Below, one piece after another: positions 6,232 to 47,473 of a stretch of 52,532 nt of DNA. The notes below the pieces were generated by a model. That model was not told where the DNA came from, made no database searches, and saw only the letters and a list, made by a program, of their open reading frames with translations. Each line of letters opens with the position of its first letter. Position 1 is the stretch's first letter. The DNA is taken from contig CADCTQ010000621.1 of the NCBI GenBank assembly GCA_902805615.1, positions 1 through 52,532 on the forward strand. The letters run 5' to 3'. The translations under genes were made by a program, and so were the position numbers. This stretch comes from an uncultured Cytophagales bacterium. GTDB lineage: Bacteria > Bacteroidota > Bacteroidia > Cytophagales > 172606-1.

Positions 6232-6425
6232 AAAAAAAGGAGACGGGAGGAAGGGAGACCGGAAACTGGATGACTGAACCGCAATGATCGCAAGGGGGAA
6301 CGCAAAGGGCGCAGAGAAATACGCGTTTTCCTTGCGGTCTTTGCGTCTCCTTTGCGCCCTTTGCGGTTCAGTTTCTCTTCTTTTTCTCCGTGAAACTCCG
6401 TGCCCTCCGTGTCTCCGTGGTGAAT
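6232..6425. repeat. composite palindromic repeat: E arm, family A copy A2, family D arm
   Basis: Between coaBC and rpoZ lie a GGAGACGGGAGGAAGGGAGA run (6239-6260, family E), a family A palindrome (6273-6374: TGAACCGCAATGATCGCAA on the left, CCTTTGCGGTTCAGTTT on the right, ACGCGT at the centre) and a reversed family D arm (6381-6425) that ends directly at the rpoZ stop codon. The same order (stop codon, D, E, A) recurs at 27398-27578. No gene is visible here. Confidence 0.8.
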
Positions 6426-10372: not shown

Positions 10373-11698
10373 ATGCTCGACAGGTTTATAACATACATCC
10401 GGGAAAAAGCGTTGTTCGGACCGGAAGAAAAAGTGCTGCTTGCCGTCAGCGGGGGCATTGACTCGGCGGTGTTGCTGCACCTGTTCGCCGAAGCGGGCTT
10501 TTCGTTCGGCGTGGCGCACTGCAACTTCGGCCTGCGCGGCGAGGAGTCGGACGCCGACGAGGCGTTCGTGAAAAAACTGGCCAAGAAATACAAGGTGCCC
10601 GTGTACACCGAGCAGTTCGAGACGGCGGCGTTCGCGGAACGGGAAAAAATCTCGGTCCAGATGGCCGCCCGGGCGCTGCGCTACGAATGGTTCGGCCAGT
10701 TGCTCCGCACGGAAGGGTACGCGTACGTGGCCACGGCCCACCACCGCAACGACACCGTGGAGACGGTGCTGCTCAACCTCGTCCGGGGCACGGGCATTGC
10801 GGGCCTGCACGGCATTCTGCCCAAAAACGGCCACGTCATCCGCCCGATGCTGTTCGTGGACAAGGAAACGCTCTACGACTTCGTGGTCGAAAAGCAACTC
10901 GTGTGGCGGGAGGATTCTTCCAACGAGTCGAACGGGTACGGGCGGAACCTGGTGCGCAACGAGGTGGTGCCCCTGCTCAAAGGACTCAACCCCAACCTGG
11001 AGGAAACGCTGGCCGGGACGACCGAACGGGTCGGGGCCGTCGAACGGGTGTTTGCGGCCCGCATCGAAGCCCTCCGGGGGTCGGCGCTGCGGACCGACGG
11101 CGAGGTGCACTACCTGAGCCTCTCCGTCCTGCGCACGGAGCCCGAGCCGCGCATCGAACTCCACGAACTCCTCAAAGCGTACCACTTCAACTACGCGCAG
11201 GCCGGGGACGTGGCGGCGGTGCTGGACGCCGAGCCGGGCAAACGGTTCGAATCGCCCACGCATACCCTGGTGAAGGACCGCGACCAGCTCGTGATCACGC
11301 CCAAGCCCCTGGCTCCTTTCCGGACGGGCAAGCTGGACGCCGACCAGACTTCATTCGAAAACGAAGTGTTCCGCCTGGCGGCCGGGACGGTGCCGGTGGC
11401 CGGCTACAAGATTTCCACCTCGCCCAAAGTGGCGGCCCTCGATTTGCAAACCCTCCGGTTCCCGCTCCGCATCCGGCGCTGGAAGGAGGGCGACTGGTTC
11501 TGCCCGCTGGGGATGACGAGCAAGAAAAAGATCAGCGACTTTTTGATTGACGAGAAAGTGCCCCTCAACCTCAAGGAACGCGTCTGGGTGCTGCTCTCCG
11601 GCGACTCGATTGCCTGGATCATCGGCCACCGCATTGACAACCGCTTCAAGATCACCGAAAAAACGGAAAGCGTTTTCGAGTTGAGCATGGTACACTGA
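10373..11698 (+). CDS. tilS: tRNA(Ile)-lysidine synthase TilS
   Basis: This 441-residue enzyme converts cytidine 34 of the CAU-anticodon tRNA-Ile to lysidine using ATP and lysine, so that AUA is read as isoleucine. The N-type PP-loop SGGIDS (26-31) is intact, followed by AHCNFGLRGEESDADE, ATAHHRNDTVETVLLNLVRG and the TGIAGLHGI segment. The C-terminal TilS domain is present (RIRRWKEGDWFCPLGM, KKKISDFLIDEKVPL). The length is usual for the family. The stop codon TGA is inside the left arm of a palindromic hairpin repeat (family B, from 11687), so the last residues, MVH, are encoded by the repeat. Confidence 0.95.
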   Translation: MLDRFITYIREKALFGPEEKVLLAVSGGIDSAVLLHLFAEAGFSFGVAHCNFGLRGEESDADEAFVKKLAKKYKVPVYTEQFETAAFAEREKISVQMAARALRYEWFGQLLRTEGYAYVATAHHRNDTVETVLLNLVRGTGIAGLHGILPKNGHVIRPMLFVDKETLYDFVVEKQLVWREDSSNESNGYGRNLVRNEVVPLLKGLNPNLEETLAGTTERVGAVERVFAARIEALRGSALRTDGEVHYLSLSVLRTEPEPRIELHELLKAYHFNYAQAGDVAAVLDAEPGKRFESPTHTLVKDRDQLVITPKPLAPFRTGKLDADQTSFENEVFRLAAGTVPVAGYKISTSPKVAALDLQTLRFPLRIRRWKEGDWFCPLGMTSKKKISDFLIDEKVPLNLKERVWVLLSGDSIAWIIGHRIDNRFKITEKTESVFELSMVH

Positions 11699-11791
11699 TC
11701 TTTTATGATGTTTATGATTTTTTATGATTTTTTTAGAATCCTTTTTTGATCAGTTCCGGTCATAATCATCCTATAAAGATCAGTGTACTAT
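11687..11791. repeat. family B hairpin repeat B1, overlaps the tilS stop codon
   Basis: Left arm ATGGTACACTGATC, then TATGATGTTTATGATTTTTT; right arm TCATAATCATCC and GATCAGTGTACTA. The arms pair over most of their length, and the loop region contains TTGATCAGTTCCGG. It is related to copies at 42382-42497, 46724-46860 and 47353-47473. It lies between tilS and the PagL-like gene and could act as a terminator. Confidence 0.8.
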
Positions 11792-11808
11792 TCTATTCCT
11801 TAGATTAA

Positions 11809-12921: not shown

Positions 12922-12932
12922 GGAGAAGAAAA

Positions 12933-13066
12933 GAACTTAACCGCAAGGATCGCCATGGAGACGCAAAGGGCGCAAAGCAATACGCGTTCTCCTTGCGCCC
13001 CTTGCGTCTCCATGGCGACCCTTGCGGTTAAGTTCCTCCGGTCTCCCTTCCTCCCGTCTCCGTTGT
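12933..13066. repeat. family A copy A3 with adjacent E arm
   Basis: Palindrome 12933-13035: GAACTTAACCGCAAGGATCG on the left, CGACCCTTGCGGTTAAGTTC on the right, ACGCGT in the centre. It is followed by a reversed E arm, CTCCGGTCTCCCTTCCTCCC (13037-13056). It lies between the PagL-like gene and the glycoside hydrolase gene. Confidence 0.8.
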
Positions 13067-19094: not shown

Positions 19095-19197
19095 ACCCAA
19101 CCGCAGAGGGCGCAATAGAGACGCAAAGGGCGCAAGGAGAACGCGTACCCCTTTGCGTCCTTTGCGTGAATCTTTGCGATCTTTGCGGTTAAGTTTA
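19094..19197. repeat. family A palindrome copy A4, starts at the iorB-type stop codon
   Basis: Left arm AACCGCAGAGGGCGCAATAG, right arm TCTTTGCGATCTTTGCGGTT, centre ACGCGT. It begins at the last base of the preceding stop codon and ends 12 bp before the GxxExxY ATG. Confidence 0.82.
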
Positions 19198-19208
19198 CAA
19201 TACTGGAT

Positions 19209-19586
19209 ATGACCGAAAATGGACTTTCAAAAGTAATTTTTGATTCAGCCCTGAAAATTCACCGGGTATTGGGACCGGGGTTGCTGGAGTCGGCTTACGA
19301 AAAGTGTTTGTATTATGAGTTGATCCAAGCAGGCTTGCTGGTTGAGAAACAGAAGCCTTTGCCTCTGGTTTACGAAGCCATAAAGCTTGAAGTCGGATAC
19401 CGGGTAGACTTGATGGTTGAGAAAAAGGTGGTTGTTGAAGTAAAAGCAGTTGAAGCAATTACGGATGTGCATTTACCCCAGGTGCTTACTTACCTTAAAT
19501 TATCCGGCTGCAAACTGGGTCTGCTCATTAACTTCAATGTAACTATGCTCAAGAATGGCGTCCGCAGAATTGCAAATCAATTGTAG
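19209..19586 (+). CDS. GxxExxY protein (PD-(D/E)XK nuclease-like)
   Basis: This 125-residue protein has the family signature G24-LL-E27-SA-Y30 and a PD-(D/E)XK-like core: Asp67 in YRVDLMVEKK, then E77-V-K79, and a later Gln91/Tyr95 (LPQVLTYL). This suggests a nuclease fold; biochemical function of the family is not established. The gene is visibly AT-richer and uses different codons (TTT, AAA, TTG, GAA) than its GC-rich neighbours. It is bracketed by two copies of the same palindromic repeat (A4, A5) and sits between otherwise functionally linked molybdenum hydroxylase and cytochrome genes. All this points to insertion as a cassette. Confidence 0.88.
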   Translation: MTENGLSKVIFDSALKIHRVLGPGLLESAYEKCLYYELIQAGLLVEKQKPLPLVYEAIKLEVGYRVDLMVEKKVVVEVKAVEAITDVHLPQVLTYLKLSGCKLGLLINFNVTMLKNGVRRIANQL

Positions 19587-19590
19587 AAAA

Positions 19591-19694
19591 GAACTGAACC
19601 GCAAAGGGCGCAAAGAAGACGCAAGGATCGCAAGGAGAACGCGTATCTCTTTGCGCCCTTTGCGTGAATCCTTGCGATCTTTGCGGTTCAGTTC
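19591..19694. repeat. family A palindrome copy A5
   Basis: Left arm GAACTGAACCGCAAAGGGCG, right arm TCTTTGCGGTTCAGTTC, centre ACGCGT. This is one of the best-paired copies. It closes the repeat-GxxExxY-repeat arrangement. Confidence 0.85.
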
Positions 19695-19743
19695 CTATTT
19701 CCTCCAAAAGACGCCGGAAATCCTGTATCACCTGTACAATTCT

Positions 19744-21433: not shown

Positions 21434-22048
21434 ATGGACAAGCTGACTCCTTCCACCCCCGTTGGCCTGGTAATCCTGGCGGCGGGCAGTTCCTCGCGCA
21501 TGGGCCAGCCCAAGCAGTTGCTTCCGTACGACGGGGAAAGCCTGGTGCGGCGGAGTGCCCGGCTGGGCCTGCTGTCGGGCTGCTTCCCGGTAACGGTGGT
21601 GCTGGGCGCCAACAGCCTGCTCATCGGCACCGAACTGGAGGATTTGCCGGTGTTCGTTGTCCAAAACCCGGATTGGGAAGCGGGCATGGCGTCGTCCATC
21701 CGGGCTGGGCTCGCCAACACGCTGCACGTACTGCCCACGGTCGGGTCGGTCATCGTTTCCCTCTGCGACCAACCCCTCGTTACGCCCGCTTTCCTGCACG
21801 GCCTCACCGACGCGTTTGCGGCCACGGGAAAGCCGGTCATTGCCACCCGGTACGGCAACACCACGGGCGTGCCGGCCCTGTTCAGCCGGGAGCTGTTCGA
21901 CGCGTTGCAAGGACTGAACGGCCAGGAAGGGGCCCGCAAGCTCATTGCCATGCACCCCGACCGGGTACACGCCGTGCCCTTTCCCGAGGCCGCCCTCGAC
22001 GTGGATACGCCGGAGGATTATTTAAAGCTCATTGGGGGGTTGATTTGA
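21434..22048 (+). CDS. MocA-like molybdenum cofactor cytidylyltransferase (NTP transferase)
   Basis: This 204-residue nucleotidyltransferase of the MobA-like fold has the nucleotide-binding signature VILAAGSSSRMGQPKQLLPY near the N-terminus, then NPDWEAGMASSIRAGLA and VSLCDQPLVTPAFL with its metal-binding Asp. VPALFSRELFD and DVDTPEDY complete the pattern. In this operon setting it most likely attaches CMP to molybdopterin for the xanthine dehydrogenase-type enzyme (MocA role) rather than GMP. It is the last gene of the module, and a large palindromic region follows its stop codon. Confidence 0.88.
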   Translation: MDKLTPSTPVGLVILAAGSSSRMGQPKQLLPYDGESLVRRSARLGLLSGCFPVTVVLGANSLLIGTELEDLPVFVVQNPDWEAGMASSIRAGLANTLHVLPTVGSVIVSLCDQPLVTPAFLHGLTDAFAATGKPVIATRYGNTTGVPALFSRELFDALQGLNGQEGARKLIAMHPDRVHAVPFPEAALDVDTPEDYLKLIGGLI

Positions 22049-22139
22049 GGTTTCTTCTGGGGAGTGAGGTTAGATATTTTGGGGTGGCGGTGAGGGAGAT
22101 TTGTAAGGGTTAAGGAGAAGGGATTTCTCGGGGATGGCG

Positions 22140-22742
22140 CAGGAAGGGTTTCTCGCAGATGACGCGGGGAAAGAAAGGGGTTCTCGCAGATTATCGCGGA
22201 TCAGGGCGCAGATGAACGCAGATTTTTTGATTGGAGGGGAGTTTGGCGGGTGGCCTTGCAAGTGCCCAAGGATTCGATCCCGCAGATGGGTGCGTGCCGG
22301 CTTTGCTCGAATGATCTTCAGGAGGTGCCGTAGCTTGGATCGCGCAGATGGAGTGCGTACCGGTTTGCCCGAATGATTTCTGAGCGGAGCCGTGGATGGA
22401 TTCGCGCAGAGGTTGGGTGGAATTGAACCGGGCCGATGCTCTGCTTGCAGGATGTAGCTACGAAGACACCAAGGCACCAAGTAGAGCCGCTTCGTGTTCC
22501 TTGGTGTCTTCGTGCCTTGGTGGCCCAACATGCAGCCCCGGCTATTGATTGTTGATCGGGAGAAAATCTGCGCACTCCAACGCTACGGCACCTACCGTCA
22601 ATCATTCGAGCAAAACCGGTTCGCACCCATCTGCGGGATCGAATCCTGCGACACCTACAGGATTTCCACAATCGACAACCAAGCGAATCAAAAATCTGCG
22701 TCCATCTGCGCCCTTATCCGCGATAATCTGCGAGAAACCTCT
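22140..22742. repeat. 600-bp nested inverted-repeat region F
   Basis: The outer arms are about 58 bp: 22176-22234 (TTCTCGCAGATTATCGCGGA onward) against 22684-22742 (ending TCCGCGATAATCTGCGAGAA). The second pair is 22269-22315 (GGATTCGATCCCGCAGATGG onward) against 22598-22647 (ending CATCTGCGGGATCGAATCC). The centre holds ACGAAGACACCAAGGCACCA (22460-22479) against CCTTGGTGTCTTCGTGCC (22499-22516). It occupies most of the 715-bp convergent gap, and no gene is visible in it. Confidence 0.75.
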
Positions 22743-22763
22743 TCCTGCGCAATCCCCATTCCA

Positions 22764-23768
22764 CTATTGATTCGAAACCCTTTCGGGGCGGAAGTACTCC
22801 TTGATGGCGCTTTTGGTAATGATTTTACCCTCATCCTCCGTGCCGCCGGGCGAATAGACGGCCAGCAAGGCCCCGTTGGCCGCGTTCAGCACCAGGTGCA
22901 AATAATTGACCTTGATCTTTGCCCGCTTGGAAATGACTTCGGGGATGATCTGCACGTAGGCGTAGGCAGCGTCGCCGCCCACCCGGGACTGGTACGTGCC
23001 GGCGTCCACCACGTCGTAGGCGTACGGGTAGAGCGACTTTACGTTGTGCTCATTCAGGTACGGGTGCAGCCAGTCCTTGCGGAGCAGCAGCGTAGTGCTG
23101 TCCGATTTAGCCCCCACGAAGCTCAGCACGTCCTGCATCTGGGAGCATTTTTCGGCTTTGGCCTCGTCGGCTTTGATGTACCGGTTGAGGATTTGCAGGC
23201 CAAACACCAGGTCGGCCTTGTCGGGCAGCACGTTGGAGAGGTTCTGGCTGAACACCGTGTTGTGGTTGCCCAGGTCCTCGATCAGTTTCAGTTCCATCAC
23301 CGCGTACGTGTCCCAGTGTTCGCGTTTTTTATTCACTTCCGTGAAATTTTCCGCCCACACCAGGCCCGCGTGGCGCCGCGCCCCTTCGTTGCCCTTGGTC
23401 ATGAAATTTTCCACGTGGGCGCAGTACAGCACCGCGTACTCCTTCGACTTGGTACCCCGCCGCAGCCGGTCGGCCTCCGAAAAAGTCATGTACTGGACGT
23501 GTTCCGCGTCGTAGGGCCAGTAGCGGGTCACCGCTTCTTTGATCCAGGCGTTGTACTGCACAACGGCCGCCTTGTAGAGTTCAATCTCCCTGGTTTTGCG
23601 CTTGCGGCGCAGCAGTTCGATCAGCCGGGGCGAATCCATTTCGGTCACCACAATGAGTTTGCGGGCCGGCAATTCCCGCAGCCGGGCCGGTTCGCAGACG
23701 CCGAACTGCGCCTGGCTTACCCGGGCCAGCAACAATAAAAAAAGGGTCCAAAACCACCGCCTCATCAT
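22764..23768 (-). CDS. secreted protein of unknown function
   Basis: This 334-residue protein is not recognised. ATG 23768 (or 23765) starts a signal peptide, MMRRWFWTLFLLLLARVSQA, followed by a mature region with Tyr/Trp-rich helical stretches (LYKAAVVQYNAWIKEAVTRY, YAVMELKLIEDLGNHNTVFS). Later come LQILNRYIKADEAKAEKC and a beta-rich C-terminus (KVNYLHLVLNAANGALLAVY). There are few cysteines, no lipobox and no catalytic motif. It stands alone between a palindromic region and a flavoprotein gene in the same orientation. A periplasmic or surface location is likely; function unknown. Confidence 0.8.
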   Translation of the reverse strand: MMRRWFWTLFLLLLARVSQAQFGVCEPARLRELPARKLIVVTEMDSPRLIELLRRKRKTREIELYKAAVVQYNAWIKEAVTRYWPYDAEHVQYMTFSEADRLRRGTKSKEYAVLYCAHVENFMTKGNEGARRHAGLVWAENFTEVNKKREHWDTYAVMELKLIEDLGNHNTVFSQNLSNVLPDKADLVFGLQILNRYIKADEAKAEKCSQMQDVLSFVGAKSDSTTLLLRKDWLHPYLNEHNVKSLYPYAYDVVDAGTYQSRVGGDAAYAYVQIIPEVISKRAKIKVNYLHLVLNAANGALLAVYSPGGTEDEGKIITKSAIKEYFRPERVSNQ

Positions 23769-23862
23769 AGCAGGTTCCTCGCAGGTAAATTGTGATAGGA
23801 ACGTCAAAATATCACTATTCGTGTTAACCGCCGGCAAAAGAAAAAAGGTCCCGCGTGGGAAA

Positions 23863-25101: not shown

Positions 25102-25164
25102 GAATGGCGAAACGGTAGGGCTGAAAGCTACGAAAAAACGGAGACAGAAAATACGGAGACGGCA

Positions 25165-25381
25165 GACCGGAGGAAAGGAGACCGGAGGAGGGCGTACCCA
25201 TACAAAGCGGAAACGGGTATAAGGAGCCGACCCGGCGGACCAACAGGAAGAAGGGAAAAAGGATTACCGGGGCCATCCGCTTGTTCTTCTCACCTCCCTT
25301 TTCCCATTCTCCCCTTCACAAGCCAGCACCGCATCCCCGGGTTGTACAGGCACGCCTCCTCCGGTCTCCTTTCCTCCGGTC
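25165..25381. repeat. inverted repeat of family E around a 160-bp spacer
   Basis: The left arm 25165-25194 contains GACCGGAGGAAAGGAGACCG and the right arm 25353-25381 contains CGGTCTCCTTTCCTCCGGTC. The arms match almost perfectly. The spacer has AAGCGGAAACGGGT and GGAAGAAGGGAAAAAGG runs but no gene. It lies between two tandem minus-strand genes. Confidence 0.7.
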
Positions 25382-25399
25382 TCCGGTCGTTCCGGTCTC

Positions 25400-40245: not shown

Positions 40246-40520
40246 AGTCCCGTAGGGACACAATATTGGTAGAACAGGCACCACCCTCCTGACGGCTAGT
40301 CCCGTAGGGACGAAAAAATATAGGTAGAACACGCGTTTGTCCATTCGTGCATCAGTCCCGTAGGGACGACATATTGGTAGAACACGCATCAATGCGTTAG
40401 GCCACAGTCCCGTAGGGACGAAATATGGGTAAGGCCCCTACCACAGGAATAATCACCCGATGGACAATTCCGCACCCGTTTCGGCGCTACGCGTTACCAA
40501 TATTTCATCCCTACGGGACT
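40246..40520. repeat. short-period cluster of 34-bp repeats (4 direct, 1 inverted)
   Basis: The unit is AGTCCCGTAGGGACGAAATA continuing to TTGGTAGAACACGC. It starts at 40246, 40298, 40354 and 40406 (spacings 52, 56 and 52) with small differences each time. An inverted copy sits at 40491-40520 (CCAATATTTCATCCCTACGG). Each unit begins with the palindrome GTCCCgtaGGGAC. The variable parts between units are 18-24 bp. It lies between two convergent genes; 40045-40245 otherwise holds only a GGAGACCGGAGGAG run (family E, 40048-40061) and no gene. Confidence 0.8.
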
Positions 40521-40566
40521 AACCCTGCTGCCATTACCACTCCTGCTCCCTGGCGTAAGTCCTGAA

Positions 40567-41631: not shown

Positions 41632-42405
41632 ATGCACTCACCCCGCCCCCTCATCGAAATCTGCGTAAACTCCGTCGAATCGGCCCTGCGGGCCCAGCAG
41701 GGCGGCGCCGACCGGGTAGAACTTTGCGAAAACCTTTTCGAAGGCGGCACCACGCCCGGCGCCGGCAGCATCGTCGTGGCCCGCCGCCACCTGACCACCG
41801 CCGGCCTGATGGTGATGGTCCGGCCCCGCGGCGGCGACTTCCTGTACTCGGACCTCGAATTTGAAATCATGCGGCAGGACGTGCGGATGGCAAAGGAGCT
41901 GGGCGCCGACGGCATCGTGCTCGGCCTGCTCACCCCCGACGGCCACGTGGACGTGCCCCGCACCGCCGAACTGGCGGCCCTGGCCGGGCCGCTGCCGGTC
42001 ACTTTCCACCGGGCCTTCGACATGGCCGCCGACCCCTTCCGGGCCCTGGAAGACCTCGCCGGGCTGGGCATTGCCCGCATCCTCACGTCGGGCCGCGAAC
42101 GGTCGGCCTTCGAAGGTGCCGCCCTCATTGCGCAACTGGTGCGGCAGGCGGCCGGCCGCATCATCCTCCTGCCGGGCGGCGGCATCCACGAACGCAACGC
42201 GGCGGCAATCCTGGCCCAGACCGGCGCCATGGAAATCCACCTCTCGGCCAATTCCCGCCAGGCCAGCGGCATGACCTACCGCAACCCGTCCTTACACCTG
42301 GGCTCGGCCCTCTACCCCCCCGAGTACGAGATCACCCTCACCGATGCGGGGAAGGTGAGTGCGGTGCGCGATGCCGCCAGGGAATGGTACACTGATGGGT
42401 TATGA
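41632..42405 (+). CDS. cutC: copper homeostasis protein CutC family
   Basis: This 257-residue TIM-barrel protein of the CutC family has the N-terminal signature LIEICVNSVESALRAQQGGA followed by DRVELCENLFEGGTTP. MVRPRGGDFLYS, FHRAFDMAADPFRALEDL, ILTSGRERSAFEG, ILLPGGGIHERNA and EIHLSANSR complete it. The link of CutC to copper comes from early genetics in E. coli and is debated, so the molecular role is uncertain. The last residues (WYTDGL) and the stop codon are encoded by the left arm of a family B hairpin repeat, meaning the repeat has extended or replaced the original C-terminus. Confidence 0.92.
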   Translation: MHSPRPLIEICVNSVESALRAQQGGADRVELCENLFEGGTTPGAGSIVVARRHLTTAGLMVMVRPRGGDFLYSDLEFEIMRQDVRMAKELGADGIVLGLLTPDGHVDVPRTAELAALAGPLPVTFHRAFDMAADPFRALEDLAGLGIARILTSGRERSAFEGAALIAQLVRQAAGRIILLPGGGIHERNAAAILAQTGAMEIHLSANSRQASGMTYRNPSLHLGSALYPPEYEITLTDAGKVSAVRDAAREWYTDGL

Positions 42406-42497
42406 TAACTATGGTTGGTTATGATCTTTTTTCTGATTCCTCTTCCACTCAAAATCAGTCCCAATCATAATCATCATAATAGATCAGTGTACCATTC
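42382..42497. repeat. family B hairpin repeat B2, between convergent stops
   Basis: GAATGGTACACTGAT (42382-42396) pairs with ATCAGTGTACCATTC (42483-42497). The inner arms TTATGATAACTATGG and AATCATAATCATCATAA also pair. The element contains the cutC stop codon and ends one base before the yihY-type stop codon (42498), filling the convergent gap. Likely works as a two-way terminator. Confidence 0.85.
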
Positions 42498-43418
42498 CTA
42501 CTTCTCGACCATCCTGATCTCGTATTCTTCGGCGAAGGGTTTGACCAGGAAAGGCAGGCCGGCGTACTCGGCGTAGGCTTTGGTGAAGGCGGCGCCGTAG
42601 TAGAGGATGAAGGAGGAATAGAAAATGAACAGCAGGAGCAGGATCACTGAGCCGGCCGCCCCGTAGATGGAATTGATGTTGCTGTTGACCAGCAGCTGGC
42701 GGAGGATGAATTTGCCCACCGAGAAAAGCACGGCCGTCAGCGCCGCCCCGAACCAGATGGCCCGCCACGGCACCCAGGCATCGGGCAGGTAGCGGAACAG
42801 CAGCGCGAACCACACGGCAATGATGCCCAGCGTAATGACCTGGTTCAGCAGCAGGAGCACGAACACGCCGTAGTCGGGCGTACTCTTTTGCAGCCAGTCC
42901 CAGGCAAAGGCCAGGAACACGTCCGCCACCAGCGCCGCCACCACCAGCGAACCGCTGACCAGGATCAGCAGCAGGGCCGTGAACCGGTGCCGCAGGTGGG
43001 CCAGGGCCCGCTGCCCCTCCTTTACCTGCACGTTCCAGAGCTGGTTGATGGACCGCTGCACCACGATGAACAGCGTGGTGGCAATGAAGATCAGGAAGAG
43101 AAACCCAACCACCGTGTAGACCCAGTTCCACACCAGGTCTTCCATGTTGCGGAACACCAGCCTCACCTGGCGGGTGGCCCCTTCGCCCACCACGTCGCGG
43201 ATTTCCTTGAAGATTTCACCGCTGATGATTTCCTTGTTGAACACGATGCCCAGGGCGGTGACGGCCACGAGCAGAATGGCCGGCAGGGAAAATATGGTAA
43301 AAAAGGCCGTTGCCGCGCCCAATCGCAACGGGTCGTTGTAATTGAGTTCTTTGTAGGCCATCACGAACACCTGCCGGAACGAACGGCCCGGGGGTGCATC
43401 CAAGGTTTTTATCCGCAT
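42498..43418 (-). CDS. YihY/virulence factor BrkB family inner membrane protein
   Basis: This 306-residue polytopic membrane protein has about six hydrophobic segments, starting with AATAFFTIFSLPAILLVAVT (residues 35-54). The family motif NDPLRLGAATAFFTIFSLPA occurs early, VQRSINQLWNVQ follows the second segment, and SNINSIYGAAGSVILLLLFI with YGAAFTKAYAE lies near the end. BrkB/YihY proteins were once called RNase BN or serum-resistance proteins; their function is unsettled, and a transport or envelope role is possible. No operon partner is evident. Confidence 0.92.
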   Translation of the reverse strand: MRIKTLDAPPGRSFRQVFVMAYKELNYNDPLRLGAATAFFTIFSLPAILLVAVTALGIVFNKEIISGEIFKEIRDVVGEGATRQVRLVFRNMEDLVWNWVYTVVGFLFLIFIATTLFIVVQRSINQLWNVQVKEGQRALAHLRHRFTALLLILVSGSLVVAALVADVFLAFAWDWLQKSTPDYGVFVLLLLNQVITLGIIAVWFALLFRYLPDAWVPWRAIWFGAALTAVLFSVGKFILRQLLVNSNINSIYGAAGSVILLLLFIFYSSFILYYGAAFTKAYAEYAGLPFLVKPFAEEYEIRMVEK

Positions 43419-46725: not shown

Positions 46726-46860
46726 TACACTGGTGGTACACTGATTTGTTATGATGATTATGATTGATTATGATCTTTTCTGCCCATTCCGCTGCAATTG
46801 ATTCCGCTTCCATTAAAATCAGTCCCAATCATAATCATCATAAAAGATCAGTGTACCATT
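46724..46860. repeat. family B hairpin repeat B3, starts in the CHAD stop codon
   Basis: The left end TAGTACACTGGTGGTACACT (46723-46742) carries a duplicated GTACACTG. The body TATGATGATTATGATTGATT pairs with AATCATAATCATCATAA, and the right end is GATCAGTGTACCATT (46846-46860). It separates the CHAD and CYTH genes. Confidence 0.83.
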
Positions 46861-46887: not shown

Positions 46888-47355
46888 ATGGGTGTAGAAA
46901 TCGAAAGGAAATATCTCGTGCGGGGGAATGCCTGGAAGGAAGGGGCTACGGGCGTAGCCTACCGGCAGGGCTACCTGAGCAGCCACCGCGAACGGACCGT
47001 GCGCATCCGGACGGCCGGCGACAAGGGCTACCTCACCATCAAGGGCATCACCACGGGGGCGGCCCGCCCGGAGTACGAGTACGAAATCCCCTACGGCGAG
47101 GCGGTGGAAATGCTGGCTACGCTCTGCGAAAAACCGGTCATCGAGAAGGTCCGCTACAAAATTCCCTTCGCGGGGCTGCTCTGGGAGGTGGACGAGTTCG
47201 GGGGCGAAAACCAGGGCCTGGTCATTGCCGAAGTGGAGCTGACCGACGAAGCCCAGTCCGTCACGCTGCCGCCCTGGGCCGGCGCCGAAGTCACGGCCGA
47301 CACCCGCTACTACAACGCCAACCTGTTCAAACACCCGTATTCAAAATGGGGGTAG
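46888..47355 (+). CDS. CYTH domain-containing protein
   Basis: This 155-residue protein starts with the signature GVEIERKYLV and continues with the alternating charged strands of a triphosphate tunnel: RTVRIRTAGDKGYLTIKG, EYEYEIPYGEAVEML, VIEKVRYKIPFAGLLWEVDE and VIAEVELTDE. CYTH enzymes hydrolyse or bind triphosphate compounds (tripolyphosphatase, thiamine triphosphatase or adenylate cyclase types). Next to a CHAD protein, a polyphosphate-related role is most likely. Its stop codon TAG is again the first three bases of a hairpin repeat. Confidence 0.94.
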   Translation: MGVEIERKYLVRGNAWKEGATGVAYRQGYLSSHRERTVRIRTAGDKGYLTIKGITTGAARPEYEYEIPYGEAVEMLATLCEKPVIEKVRYKIPFAGLLWEVDEFGGENQGLVIAEVELTDEAQSVTLPPWAGAEVTADTRYYNANLFKHPYSKWG

Positions 47356-47473
47356 TACACGGATGGTACACTGATCGGTTATGATGATTATGACGGGTTA
47401 TGATCTTTTCCGCCCATTCCGCTTCAGGCTAAAATCAGTCCCAATCATAACCATCATAATAAATCAGTGTGCC
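47353..47473. repeat. family B hairpin repeat B4, between convergent stops
   Basis: TAGTACACGGATGGTACACT (47353-47372) on the left, AATCAGTGTGCCC (47462-47474) on the right, with TATGATGATTATGACGGG and CAATCATAACCATCATAA inside. It contains the CYTH stop codon and reaches the stop codon of the bestrophin-like gene. Confidence 0.83.

Follow-up and report, generated by a model that had tools for sequence, protein, structure and literature searches.

The sequence analysed here, referred to as the window, is a stretch of 52,532 nucleotides (positions 1–52,532 of contig CADCTQ010000621.1) from an uncultured Cytophagales bacterium, whose genome is designated G000. It contains an imperfect palindrome of 628 bp (22130–22757) that is flanked by two convergent genes (Table 1). 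The best inverted repeat scored 143 bits, compared with a maximum of 39.2 bits in 200 dinucleotide-preserving shuffles. A palindrome of about 600 bp with at least three layers of inverted repeats had been proposed in a first-pass annotation, and all three arm pairs were found. The layers were also described as concentric. A gapped alignment merged the outer and middle pairs into one continuous inverted repeat of 176 columns (22178–22349 / 22566–22739, 79.5% identity). In one respect the description needs correction: the core lies off the geometric centre (22486.5 vs 22458.5 for the arms). The core occupies the tip, where it is flanked by the inner ends of arms that contain unequal numbers of middle units. 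The order in the left arm is outer module, connector and tandem units about 62 bp apart. An ORF that overlaps the palindrome (22070–22531) gave no family in a Pfam search, and an Rfam search of the window returned no match at the gathering threshold. Several copies of this element end at contig ends, which is usual for repeats in draft assemblies. As the two arms of the window palindrome differ by about 20% and its neighbours are single-copy genes, an assembly duplication is unlikely.

Table 1. Features of the nested palindrome, its neighbours and the nearby GxxExxY cassette (window positions; paired arms are separated by a slash)
Feature	Position	Strand	Remarks
Left arm of the window's own GxxExxY cassette	19110–19215	+	CGCAAAGGGCGCAAGG type; 3 kb away, separate from the palindrome, same design
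GxxExxY / PDDEXK_3 nuclease gene	19209–19586	+	between inverted repeats
Right arm of the window's own GxxExxY cassette	19587–19700	-	
Left neighbour gene, MobA-like nucleotidyltransferase (PF12804)	21434–22048	+	convergent with right neighbour
Short outermost pair	22130–22151 / 22736–22757		22 nt, 86%; extends the palindrome
Left outer arm of family A plus connector	22130–22256	+	TTCTCGCAGATTATCGCGGATCAGGGCGCAGATGAACGCAGAT at 22181–22223; module also flanks GxxExxY genes in G001 and G002
Outer pair	22173–22227 / 22690–22744		55 nt, 91%
Left middle arm	22257–22440	+	tandem ~62-bp units (ATTCGATCCCGCAGATGG...TTTGCTCGAATGAT), then tip flank; unit spacing 62 (repeat families D1, D3)
Middle pair	22257–22334 / 22582–22659		78 nt, 83%
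Core, family B palindrome	22457–22524	none	at tip; GCTACGAAGACACCAAGG ... GTGGC
Core pair	22460–22477 / 22496–22513		18 nt, 94%
Right middle arm	22556–22659	-	fewer units than left
Right connector plus right outer arm	22660–22757	-	
Right neighbour gene	22764–23837	-	no Pfam family; matches at 67% (G001) and 58% (G002) identity

The window palindrome belongs to a dispersed family, designated A. At least 162 stretches in G000 matched the window element (40 of 67 candidates scored), and the outer module had at least 40 matches at 30 or more places, a lower bound as 40 of 54 candidates were scored. Both arms were present on one contig in 15 of the 31 A stretches examined, with the outer modules always outside and converging. 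The two-armed palindromes span about 400 to 850 bp and are longer when they contain an insert or a gene. The tips differ among copies: six contain palindrome B, and four (C252, C591, C316, C401) share an ~80-bp tip, T1. On C324 the tip is occupied by a relative of the 44.2-kb family of the window, and on C229 by a GxxExxY gene. The inverted alignment continued through the centre at 66–76% identity in six A copies (C316, C438, C232, C659, C236, C161). The middle unit contains a CGCAGAT word that is also present in the outer arm. Some departures from this plan were observed. Contig C379 (L039) contains tandem middle units without the outer module. Some A copies (L035 on C324, L012 on C267, L017 on C232 and L042 on C222) have a mini-palindrome, CAGACCTGCCCTGTAAGGGTCT, where the outer arm would otherwise begin. 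Both arms are affected on C324, and one arm each on C267 and C232. A copy from another genome, G001 (L304), has a similar mini-palindrome.

B is an independent palindrome of about 80 bp, which was alone at 11 of the 17 loci read and at A tips at the remaining six. Apart from few changes, the six nested copies had the same B-in-A junction (TGTAGCCACGAAGACAC). Because one junction is present in six copies, B was probably nested once in A and the composite was then copied. An A tip of the B-bearing type that lacked B was not found among the 31 A stretches. A second case of nesting was seen in G001, which is of the same genus. Family D (GGGTGCAGGACAAGTTT, up to two mismatches) had 32 matches in this genome compared with 2 for the reversed control. 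Eight convergent pairs were formed, five of which enclose an A copy (chance expectation 0.0045). At two of the ten D loci read (L295, L296) D was alone or had a short core, and a CGCAGAT-type sequence was inside D at the other eight. The D–A junction was common to six of these ten loci, and such shared junctions suggest copying of the composite. As both the B–A and the D–A junctions are shared among copies, few independent insertions are evident. The bare D palindrome at L296 retains part of the D–A junction on one side, so it could have arisen by deletion instead of being a site that was never filled. At L301 (also L178) in G001, the D arm is separated from the A core by an insert of about 180 bp with 22-nt inverted ends (CTCAGCTCGACTTTAGCATTTT), which is possibly a separate MITE.

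The layers differ in their distribution among relatives. The outer module had at least 40 matches in G000, 22 in G001 and 6 in a second same-genus genome, G002, and none in five other genomes of the family (G003–G007). The middle ~62-bp unit had at least 62 matches in G000 (40 of 51 candidates scored) and none in the seven relatives, and core B had 23 matches in G000 and likewise none in the seven. G001 and G002 are therefore taxa with the outer layer only, and the core is an independent family. We conclude that the layers are not coeval and did not originate as a single unit. At the site of the window copy, the ortholog of the left neighbour in G001 adjoins a palindrome-free gap of about 170 bp, in which an inverted-repeat search at E 0.01 found none. 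In G002 no left neighbour was detected in the 1.5 kb next to the right one.

A GxxExxY gene is present at an orthologous locus, between two conserved genes, in three species (C229 in G000, C23 in G001, C81 in G002). The outer arms are flush with the gene in G001 and G002. In G000 the arm and the gene are separated by several middle units on either side, and outside there is another mirrored stretch; among the three species such units between arm and gene occurred in G000 only. Judged from this locus, the middle layer is most simply the younger one, the alternative being loss from both congeners, which is less simple. The middle units have arrived on either side of a gene that did not move, which is better accounted for by copying between arms, or from other A elements, than by insertion of a central palindrome. 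As the tandem unit lies on both sides between arm and gene, the middle layer fits arm expansion combined with inter-arm copying. The original proposal that palindromes were inserted at the centres of older palindromes thus survives in part. It agrees with the core being an independent family and with the recurrence of tip nesting (C324, and five of the eight D pairs in G001), but not with a middle layer that is a tandem unit in both arms, and the shared junctions leave few independent insertions.

Arm-to-arm likeness was examined with 44 arms, including 15 pairs with both arms on one contig. Arms of the same element were on average more alike than arms across elements (0.753 vs 0.691 for the outer module plus unit; 0 of 20,000 permutations), and were nearest neighbours in 6 of the 15 elements. 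The partner arm ranked 14th to 41st of 43 in the window copy, C334, C267, C232, C659 and C236. The outside 60 nt of the two arms of the window copy ranked last in likeness (43 of 43). In C252, C276 and C229a, the likeness extended outside the family's common sequence, where the outside 60 nt were 83–94% alike compared with 36–46% to other arms. No clear arm-to-arm likeness was detected in the inner-unit region (1047 of 20,000 permutations). The window copy and C334 tentatively appear to have the same unlike pair of arm types in common. On a tree of 41 of the 44 arms, grouping the B-bearing arms as a clade took 3 changes, and 30 of 500 shuffles were as low.

G000 has four GxxExxY genes, and the site of the window palindrome is not among them. 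Three of the four have inverted arms at their borders, which belong to three dispersed families, CGCAAAG, GTACACTGATC and CGCAGAT (family A), all with gene-less copies in the window as well. Such borders were not found at the fourth gene (L021), and B-type arms were at none of the four. The GxxExxY genes at 19.2 kb of the window and on C229 have the same location in congeners, so these two genes are not hopping at present. Elsewhere in the window, CGCAAAGGGCGCAA palindromes are located at 6273–6372, 12922–13046 and 19110–19700, one of which encloses the window's GxxExxY gene while the others are gene-less. Palindromes of the GTACACTGATC...ATGATGATTATG type are found at 11680–11800, 42381–42498, 46734–46860 and 47355–47415, and this family borders the GxxExxY gene on C41 (L023). 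A 34-nt inverted repeat pair of the GACCGGAGG type, 163 bp apart, was seen at 25158–25388.

The association between gene and border was quantified in larger sets of loci. Among 74 of 80 GxxExxY loci from other genomes, a AACCGCAAAG-like word was present within 300 bp upstream in 48, its complement was present downstream in 51, and both were present in 37. In the opposite orientation the word was found upstream in 18 and downstream in 9 of the 74. Control windows 1.2–1.5 kb away contained the word upstream in 0, downstream in 1 and on both sides in 0 of 66 loci. An inverted repeat of at least 40 bits linked the flanks at 29 of 89 loci, compared with 9 of 351 mismatched and 0 of 64 shifted flanks. 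For this test three of 92 loci were dropped for short flanks, the gene bounds of 12 own-family loci were approximate, and the fragments L063 and L064 were left out; L021, L056 and L058 gave no convincing inverted repeat. In an order-wide sample that was chosen regardless of flanks (25 of 28 loci, among the matches listed), at least 30 bits were reached at 6 of 25 GxxExxY loci, compared with 0 of 119 mismatched and 0 of 25 shifted flanks. The other 19 loci scored below 30 bits, so most are without a clear border. TIGR02436, which we take to be the S23p family, was sampled in the same order and reached at least 30 bits at 7 of 27 loci (27 of 29, among the matches listed) vs 0 of 132 mismatched and 1 of 27 shifted. 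The borders of these four-helix-bundle genes (L238–L266) are at times inverted tandem repeats of short words, which differ from locus to locus. Tandem-word inverted repeats (AGTCGTAAGT) resembling the borders of some TIGR02436 genes lie at 2085–2597 of the window, 412 bp apart around an ORF. A TIGR02436 gene inside this palindrome was considered and rejected, as ORF 2236–2601 matched no NCBIfam family.

The type of arm also followed the gene. The arm alphabet tracked the GxxExxY tree with 4 changes (minimum 3, shuffled mean 8.9, 0 of 200 shuffles as low), with the caveat of dense sampling, as the named loci are the best 80 of 136 relatives of one query and hence over-represent one GxxExxY subfamily. 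This test used 114 of 120 loci, six being without a recognised frame; 81 were labelled (47 by both flanks and 34 by one) and 33 were unlabelled. One locus, L059, was mislabelled AGGATT, its arms actually being type A. The GxxExxY family exceeded the cut-off in 38 of the 79 genomes of the order sampled.

The window GxxExxY (TIGR04256) protein belongs to PF13366 (PDDEXK_3). The GxxExxY motif, E27, R65, D67, E77, K79, Q91 and Y95 were invariant in 50 sequences (59–77% identical to the first), and we take these residues to be the catalytic residues and the QxxxY motif of RecB/Cas4-type nucleases. A sequence search of solved structures with this protein found none at E 5. The structure model (pLDDT 91.8) gave no Foldseek match at E 0.001 or better. 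The best E value was 0.0097 (LHK-Exo, lambda exonuclease), and SSO0001, presumably a Cas4 protein, was matched with a probability of 1.00 at E 0.016. When the model was aligned with Foldseek's own matches, SSO0001 was best (Z 8.8, rmsd 4.5, 101 aligned), followed by other restriction-endonuclease-like folds including Hjc resolvases (Z 6–7.4). Measured against the aligner's own scale, the match of the predicted fold is middling. One paper mentions a report of a GxxExxY domain at a position that CRISPRone assigned to cas4 (PMC8934634). The passages returned by a full-text search for GxxExxY contained nothing on repeats (PMC8934634, PMC12085832). A wider literature search, at the level of titles and abstracts and with most subscription papers outside its scope, found nothing on a pairing of GxxExxY with palindromes.

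Several known systems resemble these elements. MITEs are dispersed, gene-less sequences whose inverted repeats are related to the ends of a gene-bearing element. The window family is likewise dispersed and gene-less with arms related to the ends of a gene-bearing element, but differs in its nesting at tips. In the REPtron/REPIN system, a TnpA(REP) (RAYT) gene is bordered by inverted REPs and gene-less copies are dispersed (PMC2817692, PMC6006769). In both cases one gene lies between inverted repeats, gene-less palindromes that share its repeat sequence are dispersed, and the repeat type tracks the gene subfamily. However, the gene here encodes a PD-(D/E)XK nuclease (PF13366) rather than an HUH transposase, the arms consist of short tandem words and can be long, and the palindromes are nested. 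A REP is defined as a palindrome of 20–40 bp with a GTAG or CGTC tag (PMC3733652), whereas A modules begin with TTCTCGCAG and the palindromes, read by eye, are about 95 to 850 bp. Intervening sequences of 23S rRNA contain a small S23p ORF in an inverted-repeat hairpin that replaces a hairpin loop (PMC4990558). These share a small ORF inside an inverted-repeat hairpin, and TIGR02436 genes of the order are at times similarly bordered. In contrast, the window copy is gene-less and intergenic, lying between protein genes with no rRNA at the site and no Rfam match, and GxxExxY is another protein family. Finally, the insertion sequences IS1397, ISKpn1 and IS621 target REPs (PMC1525189). These too are mobile DNA landing in palindromes, but they are transposase-bearing, whereas small gene-less palindromes are found at the tip here.

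One alternative is that the palindromes are REP-like and moved by a TnpA(REP)/RAYT-type HUH transposase, with GxxExxY as a passenger. G000 has five Y1_Tnp matches, one of which (L027) is bordered by inverted CCGTAGGGAC repeats that are also present in the window, a classic REPtron layout. Inverted repeats also lie near the other four Y1_Tnp loci. Moreover, atypical flanking structures are described for TnpA(REP) subclass 2.6, which is mostly from Bacteroidetes (PMC6006769). Nevertheless, A or B sequence bordered none of the five Y1_Tnp genes, being absent within 1.5 kb on either side. The CGCAAAG palindrome at L027 lies downstream, outside the CCGTAGGGAC borders, and arms of three dispersed families, A included, are instead at three of the four GxxExxY genes. 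We consider this explanation unlikely. As L027 pairs with CCGTAGGGAC while none of the five loci carries A or B, G000 seems to hold two parallel gene–repeat systems. CCGTAGGGAC is the window's 40.3-kb family (palindromes at 40290–40525), and together with L027 it is a probable classic REPtron.

A second alternative involves no targeting of tips. Long palindromes without a spacer are unstable, and their hairpins are cleaved by SbcCD. If DNA landed anywhere, inserts in the arms would destroy the palindrome and mainly tip inserts would survive, without any targeting of the tip. The instability is general knowledge, and A tips of at least four kinds (B, T1, the relative of the 44.2-kb family and a gene) are consistent with this explanation. 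On the other hand, a foreign spacer is not required, as six A copies align in inverted orientation through their centre. It also leaves unexplained why the tip inserts are palindromes of dispersed families, and why the tip gene is so often GxxExxY, with border words on both sides at half of the 74 loci. Selection for a central spacer could give part of the pattern without targeting, but as the whole explanation we regard it as rather improbable. Alternatively, the layers could have grown in place by template switching inside quasi-palindromes and tandem duplication, with only B inserted. The arm likeness beyond the family's common sequence in C252, C276 and C229a, and the CGCAGAT word shared by the middle unit and the outer arm, would be expected in this case. 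Since the 62-bp unit is common to many places, copying between places would be needed as well, and growth in place seems to us quite improbable.

The window palindrome is a gene-less composite repeat with A arms, a ~62-bp unit multiplied in both arms (in G000 only among the genomes compared) and an unrelated palindrome, B, at the tip; the composite is present at six places. Its outer module is homologous to the arms that border the GxxExxY gene at C229, at C23 of G001 and at C81 of G002, and palindrome B is at its centre in place of a GxxExxY gene. The explanation that we favour, and for which we see an even chance, is that the window feature is a nested, gene-less relative of GxxExxY–palindrome cassettes, which would be copied by GxxExxY and would resemble TnpA(REP)–REP pairs with a nuclease of another fold. 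The arm and the GxxExxY gene would then be cognate, in the way that a TnpA(REP) gene belongs with its REPs. The PD-(D/E)XK protein may act on hairpins or cruciforms that the arms extrude, and may help to copy the gene-less palindromes in trans. To our knowledge, a RecB/Cas4-like nuclease alone does not join DNA, so a partner would be needed for copying. The hairpin tip would be the best acceptor of foreign DNA, as it would be nicked and open and neither arm would be disrupted by an insert at this point. The arms of an element would correct each other, by which new units could spread to both sides.

These findings hint at an undescribed family of gene-plus-repeat elements. It is a more tentative idea, which we think somewhat doubtful, that GxxExxY proteins are the enzymes of a widespread gene-plus-palindrome class, with a repeat alphabet specific to each subfamily, copying of gene-less palindromes and a preference for tips that leads to concentric piling. 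If true, the task performed by an HUH enzyme in the TnpA(REP)/REP system would have a second solution, based on a Cas4/RecB-like nuclease. The genes found in rRNA intervening sequences, the family of which has similar borders, may also be connected. Large intergenic palindromes are often left unexplained or labelled REP-like, and here several families of one window can be tied to a gene. If the pairing is causal, it would explain the source of many palindromes, give GxxExxY a function and provide a layered record of the order of insertion.
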